Assembly: GCA_003599015.1 (NCBI GenBank) | Contig: QZIK01000147.1 | Coordinates: 1-57,670 of the forward strand | Reading direction: 5' to 3' | DNA length: 57,670 bases | From: Desulfobacteraceae bacterium | Lineage (GTDB): Bacteria > Desulfobacterota > DSM-4660 > Desulfatiglandales > Desulfatiglandaceae | Shown here: piece by piece, positions 9,675-19,379 of the stretch | Layout: each line of letters begins with the position of its first letter | Numbering within the stretch: position 1 is the stretch's first letter | Notes under the pieces: generated by a model | What the model saw: only the letters and a program-made list of their open reading frames with translations | The model's database searches: none | What the model was told of the DNA's origin: nothing | Program-made: the position numbers and the translations under genes

Positions 9675-11630
9675 ATGGCATGTAACAGAAATCAAACGGT
9701 TATGGATAAACCCATGAGAAATGAAATCCTGAATCGCTGGACAGTGGAAGACGCCCGAGAGCTTTATGGTATAAGAAACTGGGGTGTCGGATATTTTGAT
9801 ATCAACCCTGATGGAAATGTGGTGGTGACCCCCAATCCCAAACGGCCGGATATAGCCATAAGCCTTAAGGCAATAATAGAAGGAATAAGGGAGAGGGGTT
9901 TGACCATGCCGGTCCTGCTGAGGATAGAAAACCTTCTGGTGACCCAGTTGGCGCTTCTTCACGACAGTTTCAGGAGCGCAATGCAAACCTTTAACTACCA
10001 GGGTGAATATCGCGGTGTATATCCCATCAAAGTCAACCAGCAGCAGCAGGTCATAGAGGCGATTACACGTTTTGGCAGACCCATGCATCACGGCCTGGAG
10101 GTGGGAAGCAAGGCTGAGCTGATTGCGGCAATTTCCATGATGAACGACAAGGAGGCCTGCCTCATATGCAATGGCTACAAGGACGAGGAATTTATAGACC
10201 TCGGCCTCTATGCCATCAAGATGGGATATAAGTGCTTTCTGGTTCTTGAGATGCCCAGCGAGTTACCCATGATAGTCGAACGATCCAGGATAATAGGGGT
10301 TAAGCCCAACATTGGAGTCAGGCTGAAACTTTCGACAAAGGCGGGAGGCCACTGGACAGAATCAGGAGGAGACCGCAGCATCTTTGGCCTCAATATTACC
10401 CAGTTGATTGAGGCAGTGGATTATCTCAGGGAAAGGGGCATGCTGGACTGCCTCAAGCTGCTTCATTACCATCTGGGCTCCCAGATCCCCAACATAAGAG
10501 ATATCCGTTCAGCGGTAACAGAGGCTTGCCGCTACTATGCGGAGCTGGTGAAAGAGGGCGCTCCGATGGGATACCTCGACATAGGCGGCGGCCTCGCAGT
10601 GGACTATGATGGCTCAAAGACCAATTTTATAAACAGCATGAACTATACCCTGGAGGAGTACTGTGTTGATATAATAGAGGTAATTATATCAATCCTGGGC
10701 GAAAACGGCATTCCTCATCCAACCATCGTAACAGAATCGGGAAGGGCAACAGTGGCATATTCATCCATCCTGCTGGTAAATGTCCTGGATGTGACAAAGT
10801 TTGAGATGGTGCCACTGCCGGATCAGGTCGAGGAAGGCGCCCATGAACTCATCAAAAATCTCCATGAGGTACTCAAAAGCATAACCCTCAAAAATATACA
10901 GGAATGTTATAACGATGCCATATACTACAGGGATGAGATAAGGCAGCTTTTCAAACATGGAGAGATCAGTCTGAGGGAGCGTTCTGTTGCCGAAAATATC
11001 TTCTGGAATATCATAAACATAATATACAGGGACAGAAATAAACTGAGCAAAATACCCCCTGAACTGGAAGGGATCGAGTCGGCGCTGGCGGATATCTATT
11101 ATTGCAATTTCAGCGTTTTTCAATCCCTGCCTGATTCATGGGCCATAGGACACCTCTTCCCCATCATGCCTATCCACAGGCTCAATGAGGAGCCGGTCCG
11201 TCAGGCAACCATAGCCGACGTAACGTGCGATTGTGATGGGAAGATAGATAAGTTCATAGATCTTCACGATGTAAGAAACACGCTGCCCCTTCACGATTTA
11301 AAGGAAAACGAGGAGTACTACCTCGGGGTCTTCCTGGTGGGAGCATATCAGGAAACGCTGGGAGATCTCCACAACCTAATGGGGGATACCAATATCGTAA
11401 GCGTCCACATCTATGAGGATGGCACGTATGATTTTGTAAGGGAAATAGACGGGGATTCGGTGGCGGATGTTCTTTCCTATGTGGAATACGATCCCAAAAC
11501 CCTGATGACCAATTTCCGTTCCATTGCTGAACAGGCGGTGAAGGATGGATATATCAGCCCGGCGGAGAGAAAGGAAATAGTTCAGAAATATGAAGCCGGA
11601 CTCAGTGGTTACACCTATTTTGAAAGATGA
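9675..11630 (+). CDS. speA: Biosynthetic arginine decarboxylase
   Basis: This 651-residue PLP enzyme converts L-arginine to agmatine and CO2. It has the SpeA-type N-terminus (NWGVGYFDINPDGNV) and the PLP-lysine segment GVYPIKVNQQ. GLEVGSKAEL and CNGYKDEEFIDL follow, and LDIGGGLAVDYDG is the phosphate-binding glycine loop. The catalytic Cys region near ADVTCDCDGKID is also visible. Length and motifs match the long bacterial SpeA family rather than the short pyruvoyl type. It opens the spermidine operon, nine bases before the next gene. GAGAGG lies 14 bases before the ATG, a little far; ATG 9702 is an alternative start. Confidence 0.95.
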   Translation: MACNRNQTVMDKPMRNEILNRWTVEDARELYGIRNWGVGYFDINPDGNVVVTPNPKRPDIAISLKAIIEGIRERGLTMPVLLRIENLLVTQLALLHDSFRSAMQTFNYQGEYRGVYPIKVNQQQQVIEAITRFGRPMHHGLEVGSKAELIAAISMMNDKEACLICNGYKDEEFIDLGLYAIKMGYKCFLVLEMPSELPMIVERSRIIGVKPNIGVRLKLSTKAGGHWTESGGDRSIFGLNITQLIEAVDYLRERGMLDCLKLLHYHLGSQIPNIRDIRSAVTEACRYYAELVKEGAPMGYLDIGGGLAVDYDGSKTNFINSMNYTLEEYCVDIIEVIISILGENGIPHPTIVTESGRATVAYSSILLVNVLDVTKFEMVPLPDQVEEGAHELIKNLHEVLKSITLKNIQECYNDAIYYRDEIRQLFKHGEISLRERSVAENIFWNIINIIYRDRNKLSKIPPELEGIESALADIYYCNFSVFQSLPDSWAIGHLFPIMPIHRLNEEPVRQATIADVTCDCDGKIDKFIDLHDVRNTLPLHDLKENEEYYLGVFLVGAYQETLGDLHNLMGDTNIVSVHIYEDGTYDFVREIDGDSVADVLSYVEYDPKTLMTNFRSIAEQAVKDGYISPAERKEIVQKYEAGLSGYTYFER

Positions 11631-11639
11631 GGTGGATCA

Positions 11640-12818
11640 ATGGCAAAAGTTCTCATTATCGGGGCTGGAGGCGTGGGACAGGTTGTGGCCCACAAATGCG
11701 CCCAGGCATCTGATGTCTTCACGGATATATGCCTGGCTAGCAGAAATATTGAAAAGTGCATAAAAATTGCCGGACAGATAAAAAGGCCCATTGAAACATT
11801 CCAGGTTGATGCTGAAAAGACCGAAGAGCTTACAGCTTTGATTGAAAGATGCAGACCCGACGTTGTCATAAATGTTGCACTTCCTTATCAGGATTTAACG
11901 ATCATGGATGCCTGTCTTGCGGCAGAAGTAAATTACCTGGATACCGCAAACTATGAACCAAGGGACGAGGCACGTTTTTCATATTCCTGGCAGTGGAATT
12001 ATCACGATCGCTTCCGCGGTAAGGGTCTCATGGCACTCCTGGGGAGCGGTTTTGACCCGGGGGTGACAAATGTGTTTACGGCCTGGGCACTAAGACATCA
12101 ATTTGATCAAATAGATGAGCTGGACATAATAGACTGCAACGCAGGAGACCACGGCCGGCCTTTTGCGACCAATTTCAACCCTGAAATCAATATTAGAGAG
12201 GTTACGGCTAAAGGCAGATATTATGAAAATGGACAATGGAAGGAGACCGAACCTCTCTCAGTAAAAATGGAATTCGATTTTCCAGAAGGCATCGGGCGAA
12301 AGAGGCTCTATCTGCTCTTCCACGAGGAGCTGGAATCCCTCGTAAAGCACATCCCATCCATTAAAAAGGCTCGATTCTGGATGACTTTCTCAGATAACTA
12401 TTTAAAACATCTTGAAGTTCTCCAGAATGTCGGCATGACCAGGATAGATCCTGTCAAATACAAGGGAGTGGACATAGTTCCTCTGCAATTCCTTAAGGTC
12501 CTGCTCCCTGATCCCGCATCGCTGGGTCCCCTTACCAGAGGCAAGACCTGCATCGGTTGCCTGATCAGGGGAGTTAAAGAAGGAAAGGTTAAGACCATTT
12601 ACATATACAATGTCTGCGACCACAGGTCCTGCTACGAAGAGGTTGGTTCCCAGGCCATATCTTATACCACAGGCGTTCCCGCCATGATTGGAGCAATGCT
12701 TATGGTTACGGGGGTATGGAGGGAAAAGGGCGTTTTCAACATGGAGCAGATGGACCCTGATCCTTTCATGGATAAGCTTATGGTTTACGGTCTGCCATGG
12801 CATGTAAAGACCCTCTGA
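11640..12818 (+). CDS. Carboxyspermidine (carboxynorspermidine) dehydrogenase
   Basis: This 392-residue NADPH-dependent enzyme belongs to the saccharopine dehydrogenase-like family. It joins putrescine (or diaminopropane) to aspartate semialdehyde and reduces the Schiff base to carboxyspermidine. It starts with the dinucleotide-binding loop VLIIGAGGVGQVV, and the family run GSGFDPGVTNVFTAW is clear. GAGGTGGATCA just before the ATG is a good ribosome-binding site. It overlaps the decarboxylase gene by 22 bases. The setting between arginine decarboxylase and agmatinase implies that putrescine is the amine, hence carboxyspermidine, but specificity is not readable from sequence. Confidence 0.92.
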   Translation: MAKVLIIGAGGVGQVVAHKCAQASDVFTDICLASRNIEKCIKIAGQIKRPIETFQVDAEKTEELTALIERCRPDVVINVALPYQDLTIMDACLAAEVNYLDTANYEPRDEARFSYSWQWNYHDRFRGKGLMALLGSGFDPGVTNVFTAWALRHQFDQIDELDIIDCNAGDHGRPFATNFNPEINIREVTAKGRYYENGQWKETEPLSVKMEFDFPEGIGRKRLYLLFHEELESLVKHIPSIKKARFWMTFSDNYLKHLEVLQNVGMTRIDPVKYKGVDIVPLQFLKVLLPDPASLGPLTRGKTCIGCLIRGVKEGKVKTIYIYNVCDHRSCYEEVGSQAISYTTGVPAMIGAMLMVTGVWREKGVFNMEQMDPDPFMDKLMVYGLPWHVKTL

Positions 12819-13954
12819 TAAGACTTCTTTCAGGGGCTCCAACGCCATGTTTTGTTGTGGATGAGGACGCCCTTGTAAGGAATGTCGCACTTCTGGGTAA
12901 AATCCAGGAAAGGACAGGGTGCAGGATACTTCTGGCCTTAAAGGCCTTTGCCATGTGGAAGATGTTTCCGCTTTTGCGGGAAACCCTTCGGGGGGTGTGC
13001 GCCAGCTCTCCCCACGAGGCAAGGCTGGGAAGGGAATGTTTTGGGGGAGAGGTTCATGCCTTTGCCGCCGCATACAGCCAGCAAGACTTTTCCAGGCTGC
13101 TTGAGGTTTGTGACCACATTGTTTTCAACTCCTTCAGCCAGCTGAAGCGATTCCGCCCCATGGTCCGGGAAGCCGTGCAGGATGTAAGCCTTGGTCTGAG
13201 GGTCAATCCTGAATATTCTGAAGCACCTGCAAGGCTTTATGACCCCTGCGCCCCTTTTTCAAGACTCGGCATAAGAAGAGAGCAATTCCAGGGCCAGGAT
13301 CTTTCAGGTGTATCAGGGCTTCATTTCCATACACTTTGTGAGCAGAACTCTGATGCACTGGAAAGGACCCTGGAAGCCTTTGAGGCGAAATTCAAGGATC
13401 TTATTCCCATGATGGAGTGGGTAAATTTCGGGGGAGGCCATCACATAACAAGATCCGATTATGATGTTGATCTGTTATGCGAACTGGTTGCCGGCTTCAC
13501 GGAGAGGTACGGCAAGGTGGTCTACCTTGAGCCGGGTGAGGCTGTGGCCTTGAATGCCGGATACCTTGTATCCAAAGTCCTGGATATAGTTAGAAACGAA
13601 ATTGATATAGCAATACTTGATACCTCGGCTGCCGCTCACATGCCTGACGTTCTGGAGATGCCATACAGGCCTGAAGTCTTTGGGGCAGGGCTGCCGGGGC
13701 AGCGGCGTTACACCTATAGACTCGCAGGGCTTTCGTGCCTGGCAGGTGATGTTATTGGAGATTACTCTTTTGAGGAACCCCTTGAGCCGGGAACAAGGGT
13801 CGTTTTTCTGGACATGGCACATTACACAATGGTAAAGACAAATACTTTTAACGGCATAGGGCTGCCTGCCATAGCCGTTTGCAGACCTTCCCAGGACCAT
13901 ATAAGGATCATCCGTCAATTTCATTATGAGGATTTCAAAAACAGATTGTCATGA
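12797..13954 (+). CDS. nspC: Carboxyspermidine (carboxynorspermidine) decarboxylase
   Basis: This 385-residue PLP enzyme of the alanine racemase-fold decarboxylases removes the carboxyl group to give spermidine. The PLP lysine is in ILLALKAFAMWK. SSPHEARLGRE, GLRVNPEYSE and YDPCAPFSRLG are the NspC hallmarks, and WVNFGGGHH is the phosphate loop. The start lies inside the dehydrogenase gene and the stop overlaps the agmatinase start (ATGA), so translation is coupled at both ends. The symbol follows the Vibrio gene; the substrate here is more likely carboxyspermidine. Confidence 0.93.
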   Translation: MACKDPLIRLLSGAPTPCFVVDEDALVRNVALLGKIQERTGCRILLALKAFAMWKMFPLLRETLRGVCASSPHEARLGRECFGGEVHAFAAAYSQQDFSRLLEVCDHIVFNSFSQLKRFRPMVREAVQDVSLGLRVNPEYSEAPARLYDPCAPFSRLGIRREQFQGQDLSGVSGLHFHTLCEQNSDALERTLEAFEAKFKDLIPMMEWVNFGGGHHITRSDYDVDLLCELVAGFTERYGKVVYLEPGEAVALNAGYLVSKVLDIVRNEIDIAILDTSAAAHMPDVLEMPYRPEVFGAGLPGQRRYTYRLAGLSCLAGDVIGDYSFEEPLEPGTRVVFLDMAHYTMVKTNTFNGIGLPAIAVCRPSQDHIRIIRQFHYEDFKNRLS

Positions 13955-14817
13955 ATAAAAGGCATGAATACCCGGCATTCCTTGGATCCGAGCTGGGACC
14001 GCAGAATCCTGAGACATCTTTGTTTCACATAGTTCCTGTGCCTTACGAGAAAACCGTAACCTATGGTAAGGGAACTGAAAAAGGACCTTCAGCCATACTA
14101 AAAGCCTCATGGCAGCTTGAGATCTTTGACGGGAAAGGTGTGCCCGCTGAAAGGGGAATTTTCACCCACGGGCCCATTGACTGCGCTGGAAGGGCGGAGG
14201 ATGTTATCAGCAGGATAGAAAAGACAATTTCCCTGGTCCTCAGTTCAGGGAAAATCCCGGTGATGCTTGGAGGTGAGCACACTGTAAGCCTGGGTGCAGC
14301 AAGGGCTGTCAGGAAGAGCTTTACAGATGCCGGGATAATCCAGTTGGATGCCCATGCTGACCTGAGGAATGTCTATGACGGAACTCGGTTAAGTCATGCC
14401 TGCATAATGCGGCGTGTCCACGACCTGGGAATTCCATTTGTCCAGATGGGAGTAAGGAGCCTTTCCCCTGATGAGAAATACTTCAGGGAATCGAACGAGA
14501 TACGTTGCTACGACGCACCAGGTTTGAACAAAACAGGTCTTCCGGCAAACTGGATGCCGGAGGGTTTTCCAAAAGATGTCTATGTTACCATAGATATAGA
14601 CTCGCTTGACTCATCCATTATGCCTGCTACAGGTACTCCTGAGCCTGGAGGGCTTTCATGGTATATGACCCTGGATATCTTGATGTCAATAGCCAAGCAA
14701 AGGCGGATTGTAGGATTTGACCTTGTTGAACTGGCTCCCGTTGCAGGTCTTCATCACTGTGACTATACGGCTGCAAAGCTTATTTACCTTTTTATGGGAG
14801 CAATACTATACGGTTGA
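13951..14817 (+). CDS. speB: Agmatinase
   Basis: This 288-residue ureohydrolase converts agmatine to putrescine and urea. The dinuclear manganese ligands are visible: GGEHT, then QLDAHADL, then TIDIDSLDSS. The arginase/agmatinase superfamily shares these, and agmatinase is chosen because the gene ends an operon that begins with arginine decarboxylase. GTPEPGGLSW is typical of the SpeB branch. It overlaps the decarboxylase stop by four bases. With it the operon gives the full path arginine, agmatine, putrescine, carboxyspermidine, spermidine. Confidence 0.93.
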   Translation: MNKRHEYPAFLGSELGPQNPETSLFHIVPVPYEKTVTYGKGTEKGPSAILKASWQLEIFDGKGVPAERGIFTHGPIDCAGRAEDVISRIEKTISLVLSSGKIPVMLGGEHTVSLGAARAVRKSFTDAGIIQLDAHADLRNVYDGTRLSHACIMRRVHDLGIPFVQMGVRSLSPDEKYFRESNEIRCYDAPGLNKTGLPANWMPEGFPKDVYVTIDIDSLDSSIMPATGTPEPGGLSWYMTLDILMSIAKQRRIVGFDLVELAPVAGLHHCDYTAAKLIYLFMGAILYG

Positions 14818-14844
14818 TCTGGTTGGAGGTCAGCCAAATATCAT

Positions 14845-15180
14845 TTGACAACACCTTTGAAAAGCCTTACGCTCTGGCCAAATTCACGGGGATCAGGCTT
14901 AGTTTAATCCAGCCTGGGGCACCCTCGGGCATACTCATGGTTTACATTTCGTGTGCTCCGCTTTTTTCTGGCAGTGTGTTTTTTTCCTTCTGTGCCTTTC
15001 AGGGGCACAGATCCATATCCTGGCGTTTAGCTGGTTGTTCGCAACCGCTTGTGGGACATCCCCCCGTTTGGAAGGTCCAGAGCGATGAACAGCCTTACGG
15101 CAACTGGGTTGATTATGCCGCCGCAATTTTTGCTGGCGGCCAAAACGCTAACCTAACTAGTAACACGCAAAGGAGGAGTT
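14845..15180 (+). promoter_or_regulatory. Promoter and structured leader upstream of trpB2
   Basis: This gene-free stretch starts with TTGACA (14845-14850), a 17-base spacer and TACGCT (14868-14873, a weak -10). The long leader then holds several hairpins. GCATAC/GTGTGC (14929-14934 with 14951-14956) is followed shortly by six T (14962-14967). TCTGTGCC/GGCACAGA (14989-14996 with 15004-15011) is a perfect 8-bp stem. GGTTG-TTCG-CAACC (15033-15046) carries a UUCG tetraloop. GCCGCC/GGCGGC (15117-15122 with 15135-15140) sits just before the AGGAGG. I recognise no known riboswitch or T-box core. The arrangement fits transcription attenuation or another cis-acting RNA. Confidence 0.45.
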
Positions 15181-16566
15181 ATGGAGGTAAAGAAGATCGT
15201 ATTGCCCGAATCAGAGGTGCCGCGCCAGTGGTACAATGTGGCAGCAGACATGCCGACGCCTATGGAACCGCCACTTCACCCGGGAACAGGTAAGCCTGTT
15301 GGCCCTGATGACCTTGCCCCAATCTTTCCCATGCCCCTTATCCTTCAGGAGGTAAGTCAGGAGCGCTGGATAGACATCCCCGACGAGGTCATGAAAAGAT
15401 ACCTTATGTGGCGGCCTACGCCGCTTTACAGGGCTTACAGTCTGGAGAGGCATCTCAATACCCCCGCAAGGATCTATTTCAAGAATGAGGGGGTCAGCCC
15501 TGCCGGAAGCCACAAGCCCAATACGGCGGTTCCTCAGGCCTACTATAACAAGATCTCAGGGACTAAACGCATCACGACTGAGACCGGCGCTGGCCAGTGG
15601 GGAAGCGCCCTTTCCTTTGCCTGTTCCCAGTTCGGTATAGAATGCAAGGTCTTCATGGTTAAAATCAGCTATAACCAGAAGCCATATAGGCGCATGATGA
15701 TGCAGACCTGGGGAGCCAATTGCGTTGCAAGCCCCAGTACAGAGACCAAGGCAGGCCAGACCATCCTGGCCCAGAATCCTGATTCCCCAGGGAGTCTTGG
15801 AATAGCTATCAGCGAGGCGGTTGAAGCGGCGGTAACCGGGAAGGAGACCAAGTACGCCCTGGGAAGCGTACTTAATCATGTAATGCTTCACCAGACAGTA
15901 ATAGGTCTTGAAGCCCAGAAGCAGCTGGCTGTTGCAGGAGATTATCCCGACGTGGTCATAGGCTGTGCCGGTGGAGGGAGCAACTTTGCCGGATGTGCAT
16001 TTCCCTTTGTAAGGGACAAGATCCACGGCAAGAAGGTGGAAATTATAGCGGTTGAGCCGGCATCCTGTCCCACCATGACAAGGGGACCCTTTGCCTATGA
16101 CTTCGGCGACACAGTCATGATGACTCCACTTCTGCCCATGCACACCCTGGGGCATGGATTTGTGCCTGAGCCTATCCATGCGGGAGGCCTTAGATATCAC
16201 GGCATGGCACCTCTGGTTAGCCAGCTTGTCCTTGACGGACTCATTACCCCTCTTGCGGTACCGCAGATGGAGACATTCCAGGCAGGAATCACGTTTGCCC
16301 GGACTGAAGGCTTTATCAGCGCGCCTGAGACAAACCACGCTGTGGCCGCCACCATCAGAGAGGCGATTAAGGCGAGGGAAGAGGGAAAGGAGAAGGTCAT
16401 ACTCTTTAACTGGAGCGGGCACGGTCTTGTGGACATGGCGGCATACGAGGCCTATCTGAGTGGAAAGCTGGCTGATCATGCCCTGGCTGAAGCAGAGATC
16501 CAAAGGGCCCTCAGGGAGATTGAACCGCTTCCGAAACCCAGACAATACAGGCCGTTAAAGCCGTGA
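15181..16566 (+). CDS. trpB: Tryptophan synthase beta chain, TrpB2 type
   Basis: This 461-residue PLP enzyme condenses indole with serine (or phosphoserine) to make tryptophan. The PLP lysine is in AGSHKPNTA, the catalytic Glu in [11 protein letters not shown], and the phosphate loop in GCAGGGSNF. The length, about 60 residues more than TrpB1, and the N-terminal extension place it in the TrpB2 group, which often occurs without a TrpA partner. No trpA is present here. AAAGGAGGAGTT before the ATG is a strong ribosome-binding site. The downstream iorA and iorB suggest indole or aromatic amino acid salvage rather than the standard trp operon. Confidence 0.94.
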
Positions 16567-16595: not shown

Positions 16596-16620
16596 CCCGG
16601 GGGAGTTTGACTTCCCCGGG
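16596..16620 (+). terminator. GC-rich hairpin after trpB2
   Basis: CCCGGGG (16596-16602) and CCCCGGG (16614-16620) form a 7-bp stem with an 11-base loop. No run of T follows directly, so it is more likely a partial terminator or an RNA-stability element that separates trpB2 from the ior genes. Confidence 0.4.
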
Positions 16621-16648
16621 AGTGCATTTTCATGCCCGGAGGGTACTG

Positions 16649-16930
16649 ATGGGGGAAAAGAAGTCGCCGCCAGACGGGGAATACCAAATCCGTTGCCCGA
16701 GACTGGGACACCATGTTTCCTTTCTATATTGCAGATATGAGAATAAGGGGCTTCCCTGTTTCAAAACCCTGGACTGCTGGTTCGAGCATTTTCCGGTGGA
16801 GGAATATCTCAGGAATGATCTTTCCTCGGAGGACTGGGATAAGGTATTTGAAAATCTTCCTAAGAGCAAGGTTGTTTCCCTGCTGGAACTGATTGAGCAG
16901 GCAAAAAAAAGGAATCAAGAAAGGATATGA
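16649..16930 (+). CDS. Small four-cysteine protein upstream of iorA
   Basis: ATG 16649 has GGAGGG six bases upstream and is preferred over an earlier in-frame start at 16607. The 93-residue product has no signal peptide. Four cysteines lie in one 30-residue block: RCPRLGHHVSF, YCRYENKGLPC and DCW. This looks like a zinc or iron-sulfur site. The rest is charged and helical (SLLELIEQAKKRNQ). The stop overlaps the iorA start, so it is probably translated with IorA. I recall similar small proteins beside iorA in related bacteria, but no function is known to me. A role in maturation of, or electron transfer to, IorAB is only a guess. Confidence 0.75.
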   Translation: MGEKKSPPDGEYQIRCPRLGHHVSFLYCRYENKGLPCFKTLDCWFEHFPVEEYLRNDLSSEDWDKVFENLPKSKVVSLLELIEQAKKRNQERI

Positions 16931-18798
16931 TGAAAGAAGAGATTTTTTTGGGTAACGGCGCGATAGCCCTAGGGCTCCTTGAGGCCGGATGCCAGGTGGT
17001 GACCTCCTATCCTGGTACGCCGAGCTCAGAGATCCTGCCGGAGGTGGTACGCCTCAAGAAGTCGCAGGGCCTTAACACCTACGTTGAGTGGTCAACGAAC
17101 GAAAAGGTAGCCCTGGATAATGCCTTTGCCGCCTCGATTGCAGGAAAGAGGTCCTGCTGTTGCATGAAGCAGGTGGGACTCAACGTGGCTGCCGATTCAC
17201 TCATGAGCGCAGCATACATGGGAACTGTCGGTGGATTTGTGATCATTTCCTGCGATGATCCGGGACCCCACTCATCTCAGACCGAGCAGGACACCCGCCT
17301 TATGGCAAGGATTGCCAAGGTTCCTGTGCTTGATCCTTCTGGTCCCCTGGAGGCCAGGGATATGGCAAGGATTGCCTTTGAGATATCCGAGCGTTTTAGG
17401 ATTCCTGTAATACTGAGACCCGCTATCCGAGTTTGCCACGCAAGACAGAGCATGGCATGGGCGGATCTGAGAAGCAACGAAGCCAGGGCGGCATTCCAAA
17501 AAGACCCGGGCAGGTGGGCTGCAACACCCCGTTTCAGACTTATCCTTCACAGGGAACTGAACCATAAACTTAAAGAGATAGGAAGGCTCTTTGACGGGCT
17601 TTCGGAGATCAATTTCCATGACCTGCAGGAAGGAAAAACCTACCCTTTCGGCATCATCTGCGGAGGCGTGCCTTATGCAGTGGTAAAAGACATATTATCG
17701 GAACAGTCAAGGAGTGACATCCCGGTCCTCAAGCTGGGTGCTCCCTATCCTTTCCCTGAAAGTCTTGCATCTCAATTCATGGAACAATGCGAAAGGGTTT
17801 TGGTTTTGGAGGAGACTGATACCCTGATTGAATATCTGCTCTCGGACAAGGACAAGGTTATGGGCCGAAGGTCCGGCCATGTGCCTCAGGAGGGAGAGCT
17901 TATTCCGGAAGCAGTGGCAAGAGCTGTCAATAAGGCCCTTGAGACCTGCGGACTTGAAGTCCTTTCCATCGGCGACAGCCGTGAGGTAAATGAGCTGGTT
18001 AAGGGTCTTTCCCTGCCCGTGAGAAAGCCGACCCTTTGCCCCGGCTGTCCCCACAGGGCATCTTTTTTCGCCATTAGAAAAGGACGCTCCAAGGCGATCT
18101 TTACCTCTGATATAGGCTGTTATACCCTGGGTCTCAACCTTGGTTCCGTGGATACATGCCTTGACATGGGTGCGGCTATTACTATGGCATCGGGCTTCTA
18201 TCATGCCTTTGGCCAGGACGGAACGAGGCAACCCATTATTGCGACCATAGGAGACTCCACATTTTATCATTCAGGTACTGCGGGGCTGCTCAACGCAGTA
18301 TATAACGGGGCGAGATTCATTCTGGTCATCCTCGACAACCAGATAACGGCCATGACAGGGATGCAGCCGACCCCCGGGCTTGGAATACGTGCAGACGGAA
18401 CAAGCGGTGTGGCCATTCCTCTTGAAAGGGTGGTCAGGGGGTGCGGTATTGATTTTCTGGAGGTGGTTGATCCTTATGATCTTTCAACCATGTTAGGAAC
18501 TCTTAAGAGAGCCACCTCTTACGTACAGGATGCTGCCGGCGGGATCGCCGTCGTTATAGCCCGGCATCCGTGTGTGATCGCTTACAGAAAGGAGGCCATA
18601 CCCAACCCCAGAAAGCCCACAGTCACAGATGAGTGTGTATCATGCGGTTTTTGTATGCAGCGCTTTGAATGTCCGGCTCTTTACAGGGATGAGAAGGCAG
18701 ACCATACCATGATAAATGAAGTCCTTTGTACCGGATGCGGCGTGTGTATTGAGGTCTGTCCCAAAGGGGCCATTGTAGCCGTGGGTTCAGAGCAATGA
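16927..18798 (+). CDS. iorA: Indolepyruvate:ferredoxin oxidoreductase, alpha subunit
   Basis: This 623-residue catalytic subunit oxidatively decarboxylates aryl pyruvates from Trp, Phe and Tyr to aryl-acetyl-CoA, reducing ferredoxin. The order is an N-terminal pyrimidine-binding domain (SYPGTPSSEILPE), a linker domain, and the TPP-binding domain (CPGCPHRASFF, GDSTFYHSG, LDNQITAMTG). It ends with two [4Fe-4S] motifs, CVSCGFC with a following Cys and CTGCGVCIEVCP. ATG 16927 overlaps the small gene; ATG 16930 is equally usable after AAAGG. The enzyme is oxygen-sensitive and typical of anaerobes. Confidence 0.96.
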   Translation: MMKEEIFLGNGAIALGLLEAGCQVVTSYPGTPSSEILPEVVRLKKSQGLNTYVEWSTNEKVALDNAFAASIAGKRSCCCMKQVGLNVAADSLMSAAYMGTVGGFVIISCDDPGPHSSQTEQDTRLMARIAKVPVLDPSGPLEARDMARIAFEISERFRIPVILRPAIRVCHARQSMAWADLRSNEARAAFQKDPGRWAATPRFRLILHRELNHKLKEIGRLFDGLSEINFHDLQEGKTYPFGIICGGVPYAVVKDILSEQSRSDIPVLKLGAPYPFPESLASQFMEQCERVLVLEETDTLIEYLLSDKDKVMGRRSGHVPQEGELIPEAVARAVNKALETCGLEVLSIGDSREVNELVKGLSLPVRKPTLCPGCPHRASFFAIRKGRSKAIFTSDIGCYTLGLNLGSVDTCLDMGAAITMASGFYHAFGQDGTRQPIIATIGDSTFYHSGTAGLLNAVYNGARFILVILDNQITAMTGMQPTPGLGIRADGTSGVAIPLERVVRGCGIDFLEVVDPYDLSTMLGTLKRATSYVQDAAGGIAVVIARHPCVIAYRKEAIPNPRKPTVTDECVSCGFCMQRFECPALYRDEKADHTMINEVLCTGCGVCIEVCPKGAIVAVGSEQ

Positions 18799-18812
18799 AG
18801 GGGGACAAGGCA

Positions 18813-19379
18813 ATGGACACCATAAATATCGTTCTTTGCGGACTGGGAGGACAGGGTATCCTTTTTATGACAAAGGTGCTTGCAGAAGATGCTCTCAGAA
18901 GGAAAATCCCTGTATTGGGGGCTGAGACCCATGGTATGGCCCAGAGGGGAGGCTCCGTCGTGTCGCATCTTAGGATGGGAAATGCAAAAAGCAGTCTTGT
19001 GTCTTCCGGTCAGGCCAGGTTTCTTCTGGCGCTTGATCCATGGGAGGCATACCGAAATCTTCCATTCCTGGCACCTGGAGGGTTTCTTTTTGCCAATGCT
19101 CCTGAAGGGGGGGGGCCGGCGGAAGAGGTGAAGATCTACCTGGATAAGCTGGGCGTTGAGACAAGGATTACGGATGCAGGAATGTTAGCAAGGAAAATAG
19201 GTGCACCCCTTTCTACTAATCTGGCCTTGCTGGGGTTTTTCTCATCATTTTCGGACGGAGGGCCGTTTTCCCACGAGGGGCTCCATGAAACAATTTCATT
19301 GATAAGCCCCGAGAGGTTCAGGGAGACCAATCTCAAGGTGTTTGAGGCGGGTTTTGAACAGGGGGCGAAAAGGTCTTAG
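18813..19379 (+). CDS. iorB: Indolepyruvate:ferredoxin oxidoreductase, beta subunit
   Basis: This 188-residue gamma-type subunit has the expected start INIVLCGLGGQGILFMTKVL and the run AETHGMAQRGGSVVSHLR seen in 2-oxoacid:ferredoxin oxidoreductases. ATG 18813 is chosen because GGGGG lies eight bases before it and the protein then begins like other IorB proteins. ATG 18795, which overlaps the iorA stop, is the alternative. It forms the heterodimer or heterotetramer with IorA. Confidence 0.93.
   Translation: MDTINIVLCGLGGQGILFMTKVLAEDALRRKIPVLGAETHGMAQRGGSVVSHLRMGNAKSSLVSSGQARFLLALDPWEAYRNLPFLAPGGFLFANAPEGGGPAEEVKIYLDKLGVETRITDAGMLARKIGAPLSTNLALLGFFSSFSDGGPFSHEGLHETISLISPERFRETNLKVFEAGFEQGAKRS

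Follow-up and report, generated by a model that had tools for sequence, protein, structure and literature searches.

A conserved leader element with one covarying hairpin before trpB2 in Desulfatiglandales

What is held in the long leader ahead of a trpB2 gene, and is any of it kept for the sake of that gene? The question is raised by contig QZIK01000147.1 of a Desulfobacteraceae bacterium of the order Desulfatiglandales, analysed over its whole 57,670 nucleotides (nt; the window in what follows), in which an extended non-coding leader precedes trpB2, the gene for a TrpB-like pyridoxal phosphate (PLP) enzyme. A preliminary description, made from the letters alone, had named four hairpins there, had grouped them as one possible uncharacterised regulatory RNA and had thought of tryptophan- or indole-responsive attenuation. 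All four hairpins are present in the window sequence. The last of them, here called P2, belongs with its flanks to an element of about 62 nt which, by its covarying structure and its consistent place before one gene, is a candidate cis-regulatory RNA in the general sense of the term; the existence of an RNA element that is under selection and peculiar to trpB2 is close to certain.

A hairpin element that recurs before trpB2

The trpB2 protein was located in 49 of 61 related genomes, and at a stricter cut-off in 37 of the 46 genomes of the window's family. Upstream of the relatives' genes a hairpin recurs directly before the Shine-Dalgarno (SD) site, at the place of the last hairpin of the window. 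From 14 copies picked by hand a covariance model (R1) was made, which gave 25 matches at E<=0.1 in 22 of the 61 whole genomes; 23 stand immediately before trpB2, and the other two are weak and lie elsewhere (the weak matches L080 and L081, not before trpB2, were taken as chance). A model of P2 only, from 27 copies (R2), gave at E<=0.01 a total of 32 matches in 31 of the 85 genomes of the class, and all 32 precede trpB2, part of these placements resting on trpB2 positions located in earlier protein searches. By family the R2 matches fall in 24/46 genomes (the window's family), 7/18 (a second family) and 0/21 (the other families of the class), with weaker matches (E 0.19-0.98) correctly placed in L020/L114, L021 and L097. 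Within the window's own genome the element is the sole match of either model (R1, E 1.0e-6; R2, E 1.7e-4), and in the matched genomes generally it is a single-gene affair, the model finding trpB2 alone.

A sample of the phylum (395 genomes, scored for 13 candidates per genome, so that weak copies could escape) yielded six R2 matches, five of them before trpB2 in members of the order. The sixth (G266) is not before trpB2; it lies inside an unrelated open reading frame (ORF), presumably akin to a DNA ligase gene by its motif, and was taken as chance. Among the best 80 trpB2 loci of named genomes, 13 have the element at the expected place (R2, E<0.01) and three more have placed matches at E 0.087-0.98. 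Named carriers include a genus mate, Desulfobacteraceae bacterium CG2_30_51_40 (L095), and strain NaphS2 (L140), which we take to be a cultured strain.

Does the element follow the enzyme by descent alone? In a tree of 88 TrpB2 proteins the element-bearing copies fall in two groups with very long branches between them. In one family the element stands between serA (TIGR01327 above cut-off) and the distant trpB2 paralogue; in one genus of the other family it stands between serA and trpB2 of the window type. The simplest reading would be that the leader stayed in place while one trpB2 was exchanged for the other behind it. O-phosphoserine can serve TrpB2 enzymes as a substrate, and a serA neighbour fits an enzyme that uses it. 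A SerA-like gene lies 1-281 nt before the element at ten loci (L068, L069, L070, L075, L087, L090, L093, L007, L010 and L031), with TIGR01327 confirmed for L007, L010, L031, L069, L070 and L075. The gene upstream of another copy (L013:3059-4369, minus strand) resembles a beta-CASP nuclease, its best NCBIfam match being a type VII CRISPR protein, below cut-off.

The place of the element is fixed with respect to the gene and not to the promoter. The ATG follows the end of P2 after 32-47 nt (median 35) in every row of the element alignment for which a start was found, 35 of the 37; the other two are L026, the first codons of which are missing in its metagenome-assembled genome (MAG), and L093, which has no ATG. 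Measured in 20 leaders, the stretch between promoter and element is 40-247 nt long, a variation of about 200 nt, with L032 at the lower end. Compared between congeners, the element is better conserved than the 70 nt before it in 14 of the 15 pairs (the pairs are not mutually independent), and in the genus pair it is 62% identical as against 41% at fourfold sites.

The P2 stem and the rest of the leader

Alignment A6 holds 37 copies of the element, with a per-genus set of one row per genus (19 rows). Two off-site rows (L064:1490-1551 and L034:1957-1984) were left out of the per-genus and G-U counts and kept in the 39-row covariation and P1 tests. Over 39 rows, standard pairs fill 90.6% of P2 cells, both partners vary in nine of the 11 pairs, and a covariation score of 0.413 compares with 0.277 in shuffled alignments (0/500 as high), controls with the strands slid staying at or below 0.115; for the per-genus set the two scores are 0.544 and 0.328 (0/500). 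G-U pairs outnumber A-C oppositions 82 to 8 (37 rows), or 40 to 3 per genus; in composition shuffles of the latter rows the figures are 44 to 12, so that composition accounts for part of the excess. Judged from the aligned sequences, covariation together with the excess of G-U over A-C marks P2 as an RNA stem. Other covarying column pairs are scattered and form no helix.

The best conserved unpaired letters of A6 are a GGU before P2 and an AACC after it. Could they pair? The window is predicted to fold with a 7-base-pair (bp) outer stem, P1, closing on P2. Native flanks show no pairing advantage over swapped ones (p 0.43, 27 rows), P1 covariation is not above shuffles in alignment A4 (121/500 as high), and in A6 it is weak (22/500) with slid controls equally high; P1 is unproven.

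Where does this leave the other hairpins? The fold of the whole leader (14818-15183) is not exceptional (z -1.55, 6/100 shuffles equally good), and was dropped as evidence for a structured RNA. The run of six T reported after an earlier hairpin does follow one, at 14926-14960, whose own fold is middling (z -1.75, 11/200 shuffles equally good). The 8-bp hairpin folds exceptionally (z -4.05, 0/200, with a second z value of -4.75 alongside), and the last element of the leader has z -2.30 (5/200). The 8-bp stem of the genus mate has C-G in place of two U-A pairs, the hairpin with T6 recurs there, and the UUCG-capped hairpin is not kept, as read from the alignment. These two shared hairpins lie in block 14928-15040, the best conserved part of the leader between the two species (79% identity, E 3.1e-19), where the pairing register of the one before T6 differs between them; the block has no convincing match in other genomes of the family. 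Going by these two sequences, the block may be a further layer of control confined to the genus. Conservation beyond the genus is confined to the last of the four, which covaries across the order. Since that hairpin alone is common beyond the genus, and the promoter-element distance of relatives goes down to 40 nt, the reading of the four as one RNA is not supported. What survives of the preliminary description is a structured, apparently uncharacterised cis-acting RNA without an Rfam match; its proposed check by covariation in relatives comes out in favour of P2 and, at genus level, the 8-bp and T6 hairpins keep company with it while the UUCG hairpin does not.

Transcription of trpB2 probably starts near 14880, to go by a TTGACA/TACGCT pair, position 14845, the leader start in the preliminary description, being the first base of its -35-like box. 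A consensus promoter scan does not list this pair (its -10 box is weak), and a loose pattern, TTGAC-N15-20-TANNNT, is found at comparable positions in 20 of the 27 leaders that bear the element. The SD site is mostly open in the predicted fold (mean unpaired probability 0.62). Upstream of the leader is a polyamine cluster (9675-14817) of genes for arginine decarboxylase, a carboxynorspermidine synthase-like protein (below cut-off), carboxynorspermidine decarboxylase and agmatinase. Between trpB2 and iorA is an ORF of 107 amino acids (16607-16930) without a Pfam or NCBIfam match.

Table 1. Features of the trpB2 locus in the window
Feature	Coordinates	Strand	Basis or remark
Conserved trpB2 leader element, ~62 nt	15099-15160	+	covariance-model match
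5' flank GGGUU, conserved	15106-15110	+	A6 columns 9-11; candidate pairing with 15150-15153
P2 hairpin (GCCGCCGCAA-UUU-UUGC-U-GGCGGC)	15117-15140	+	fold, covariation; strands GCCGCC/GGCGGC, 15117-15122/15135-15140
3' flank AACC, conserved	15150-15153	+	A6 columns 79-82
Shine-Dalgarno AAGGAGGAG	15170-15178	+	sequence
Promoter-like pair TTGACA, 17 nt, TACGCT	14845-14873	+	read from sequence
Terminator-like hairpin with T6 (14962-14967)	14926-14967	+	genus mate only, pairing register shifted there
Perfect 8-bp hairpin	14989-15011	+	strands 14989-14996/15004-15011
UUCG-capped 5-bp hairpin GGUUG-UUCG-CAACC	15033-15046	+	sequence and alignment
Agmatinase gene	13951-14817		5' border of leader
trpB2 (TrpB-like PLP enzyme)	15181-16566	+	NF009057 739.5 bits, TIGR01415 644.3 bits, both above cut-off
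iorA, indolepyruvate ferredoxin oxidoreductase alpha	16927-18798	+	downstream of trpB2; TIGR03336 662.2 bits, cut-off 650.9
iorB-like	18795-19379	+	downstream of trpB2; TIGR03334 125.6 bits, below cut-off 205.8

How the element may act

The explanation that we tentatively put ahead, at somewhat less than even odds, makes of 15099-15160 a cis-acting RNA of trpB2 mRNAs, specific to the order, that serves as a translational operator with a bound factor. A P2 hairpin of about 8-11 bp would be displayed between conserved unpaired flanks, some 35 nt ahead of the start codon. With the element unbound, the SD would be mostly open and trpB2 translated; with enough tryptophan, or a linked metabolite, the factor would bind hairpin and flanks and hinder the 30S ribosomal subunit. 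Regulation as such, its site of action in translation, repression on binding and the link of the signal to tryptophan are each steps that we infer; action on translation through a bound factor is suggested by the spacing tied to the ATG, the SD open by default and the lack of a terminator.

Several points weigh against it. The alignments are biased towards P2, to which they had been fitted, and in the first MAFFT alignment (14 sequences, P1 and P2) covariation was borderline (21/500 shuffles as high). The fixed spacing may in part be shared ancestry. The element stands before only some trpB2 genes, as the family counts above (24/46, 7/18 and 0/21 genomes) make plain, and a relative of NaphS2 (L040, the same region as L125) has a conserved promoter and a short leader without the element; trpB2 can thus do without it.

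Tryptophan attenuation is no stranger to this setting. Peptides with three consecutive tryptophans (WWW), together with hairpins and T-runs, precede trpB2 at eight of the best 80 named loci; 14 of the 80 have a short ORF with tandem tryptophan codons (WW), eight being counted as WWW near trpB2 and the other six judged chance by eye. Such leaders with terminator-like hairpins, about 100-260 nt before trpB2, are found in other deltaproteobacterial genomes (L157, L165, L167, L168, L169, L170, L172 and L174). Two carriers of the element, G021 and NaphS2, have a WWW leader and hairpins before the trp operon (L181 near 9146, minus strand; L183 near 1646, plus strand), on contigs whose trpB1 is above the TIGR00263 cut-off; the gene directly behind the leader we take, from its motifs only, to be that for TrpE. 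These bacteria therefore own tryptophan attenuation and do not use it for trpB2, which suggests that in the two carriers the two synthases answer to different signals, the trp operon being attenuated and trpB2 not.

That classical attenuation by a leader peptide also operates in the trpB2 leader, as the use of it for the trp operon in the same order and the terminator-like hairpin with T6 in the window might encourage one to think, is highly improbable: none of 27 element-bearing leaders, the window's included, has a WW-containing short ORF, only scattered ORFs with two tryptophans being seen, and no ORF runs consistently across P2. A leader peptide across P2 was rejected on the disagreement of frames, starts and stops between rows, and the UGG of P2 in some rows as a tryptophan codon on the want of a start codon in most such frames. 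At P2 there is no intrinsic terminator, A-rich sequence and no T-run following it, and a terminator-like site is present in only 4 of 20 leaders and so not general (the scan covered 20 promoter-bearing and six promoter-less rows, L001 being left out, and its counts stand for 20 of 37 rows); the 40 nt from promoter to element in L032 tells in the same direction. Attenuation by tryptophan, as imagined in the preliminary description, is thus not supported for this leader. Might P2 instead be a relic, a terminator or antiterminator arm with a CCGUGG core, left over after leader peptide and T-run had gone? The WWW attenuators just mentioned, whose hairpins also have GCCGUGGG/GCCAUGGG cores, lend this some colour, but a relic should neither covary nor survive a swap of the downstream paralogue, and we hold it to be very unlikely. 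Hardly credible is an inverted repeat bound as DNA by a transcription factor: it does sit downstream of the promoter as an operator might, but G-U stands far above A-C at its pairs, also per genus when set against the shuffles, and it is the promoter distance that varies and the ATG distance that does not.

More is to be said for a riboswitch, in which the flanks would close P1 (GGU/ACC) on P2, the internal loop would bind a small molecule (tryptophan, indole, an aryl pyruvate or phosphoserine) and the closing of P1 beside the SD would switch translation. The flank consensus is self-complementary and nearly invariant, the window folds with the 7-bp P1, and the element is compact and close to the SD; against this stand the P1 tests with swapped flanks, shuffles and slid controls, and the restriction to one gene per genome and one order, and we consider it rather unlikely. 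No known riboswitch class in Rfam matches. The further proposal that the element is a new class of small metabolite-sensing RNA with which these sediment-dwelling anaerobes tune an indole- or phosphoserine-dependent trpB2 apart from the WWW-attenuated trp operon is decidedly doubtful. Nor need there be a signal: hairpin and A/C-rich linker could be an unregulated ribosome standby site or mRNA-stability element, with which the fixed spacing to the SD, the A-rich 3' flank and the mostly open SD agree. A general enhancer of that kind would be expected ahead of numerous genes, but trpB2 is the only one that the model picks out, and the flank letters are conserved on both sides; such a constitutive role is unlikely too.

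Significance and known systems

What began as a guess from one sequence is now a defined RNA family: it has a model and an alignment of 37 copies, its target is a single gene, and NaphS2 can be named as a carrier. The regulation of TrpB2, whose role beside a normal tryptophan synthase is unsettled, is thereby opened to test. If the element has indeed been kept before two non-orthologous trpB2 genes, a regulatory leader would have outlived replacement of the gene that it controls. A natural riboswitch sensing tryptophan or indole, were it real, would to our knowledge be the first for either.

Rfam has no match in the window, in keeping with the earlier statement that no T-box or other known class was recognised. 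A T-box leader (RF00230) does precede trpB2 in two MAGs of Bacillota (L159:1846-2126 and L171:2651-2964), which served as positive controls and match RF00230; the window leader has no match at E<=10 (14780-15300). A T-box likeness of the NaphS2 hairpin was dropped, being resemblance in sequence only. A literature search, largely without subscription papers, found no account of this element.

With the leader-peptide trp attenuators the element shares control of tryptophan genes from a leader; unlike them it has neither tandem tryptophan codons nor a mutually exclusive terminator. Nearer in kind is the trpB motif (SRC-39-1), a strong riboswitch candidate with two covarying hairpins of which the second is an intrinsic terminator (PMC11109978). 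Like the element it is a structured 5' untranslated region RNA and an orphan, and it is sometimes found before a tryptophan-synthase gene; the trpB2 element differs in its one covarying hairpin, the absence of a terminator and its restriction to trpB2 and to Thermodesulfobacteriota, so that the two are set apart in phyla, terminator and usual target genes, a separation made by description (PMC11109978). Also to be compared, by description only, is the conserved sequence 5' of iorAB-paaK in Geobacter, a predicted regulatory leader (PMC2700814): it stands before another gene, but as the leader of a neighbouring aryl-pyruvate/tryptophan operon it is akin to the element described here.
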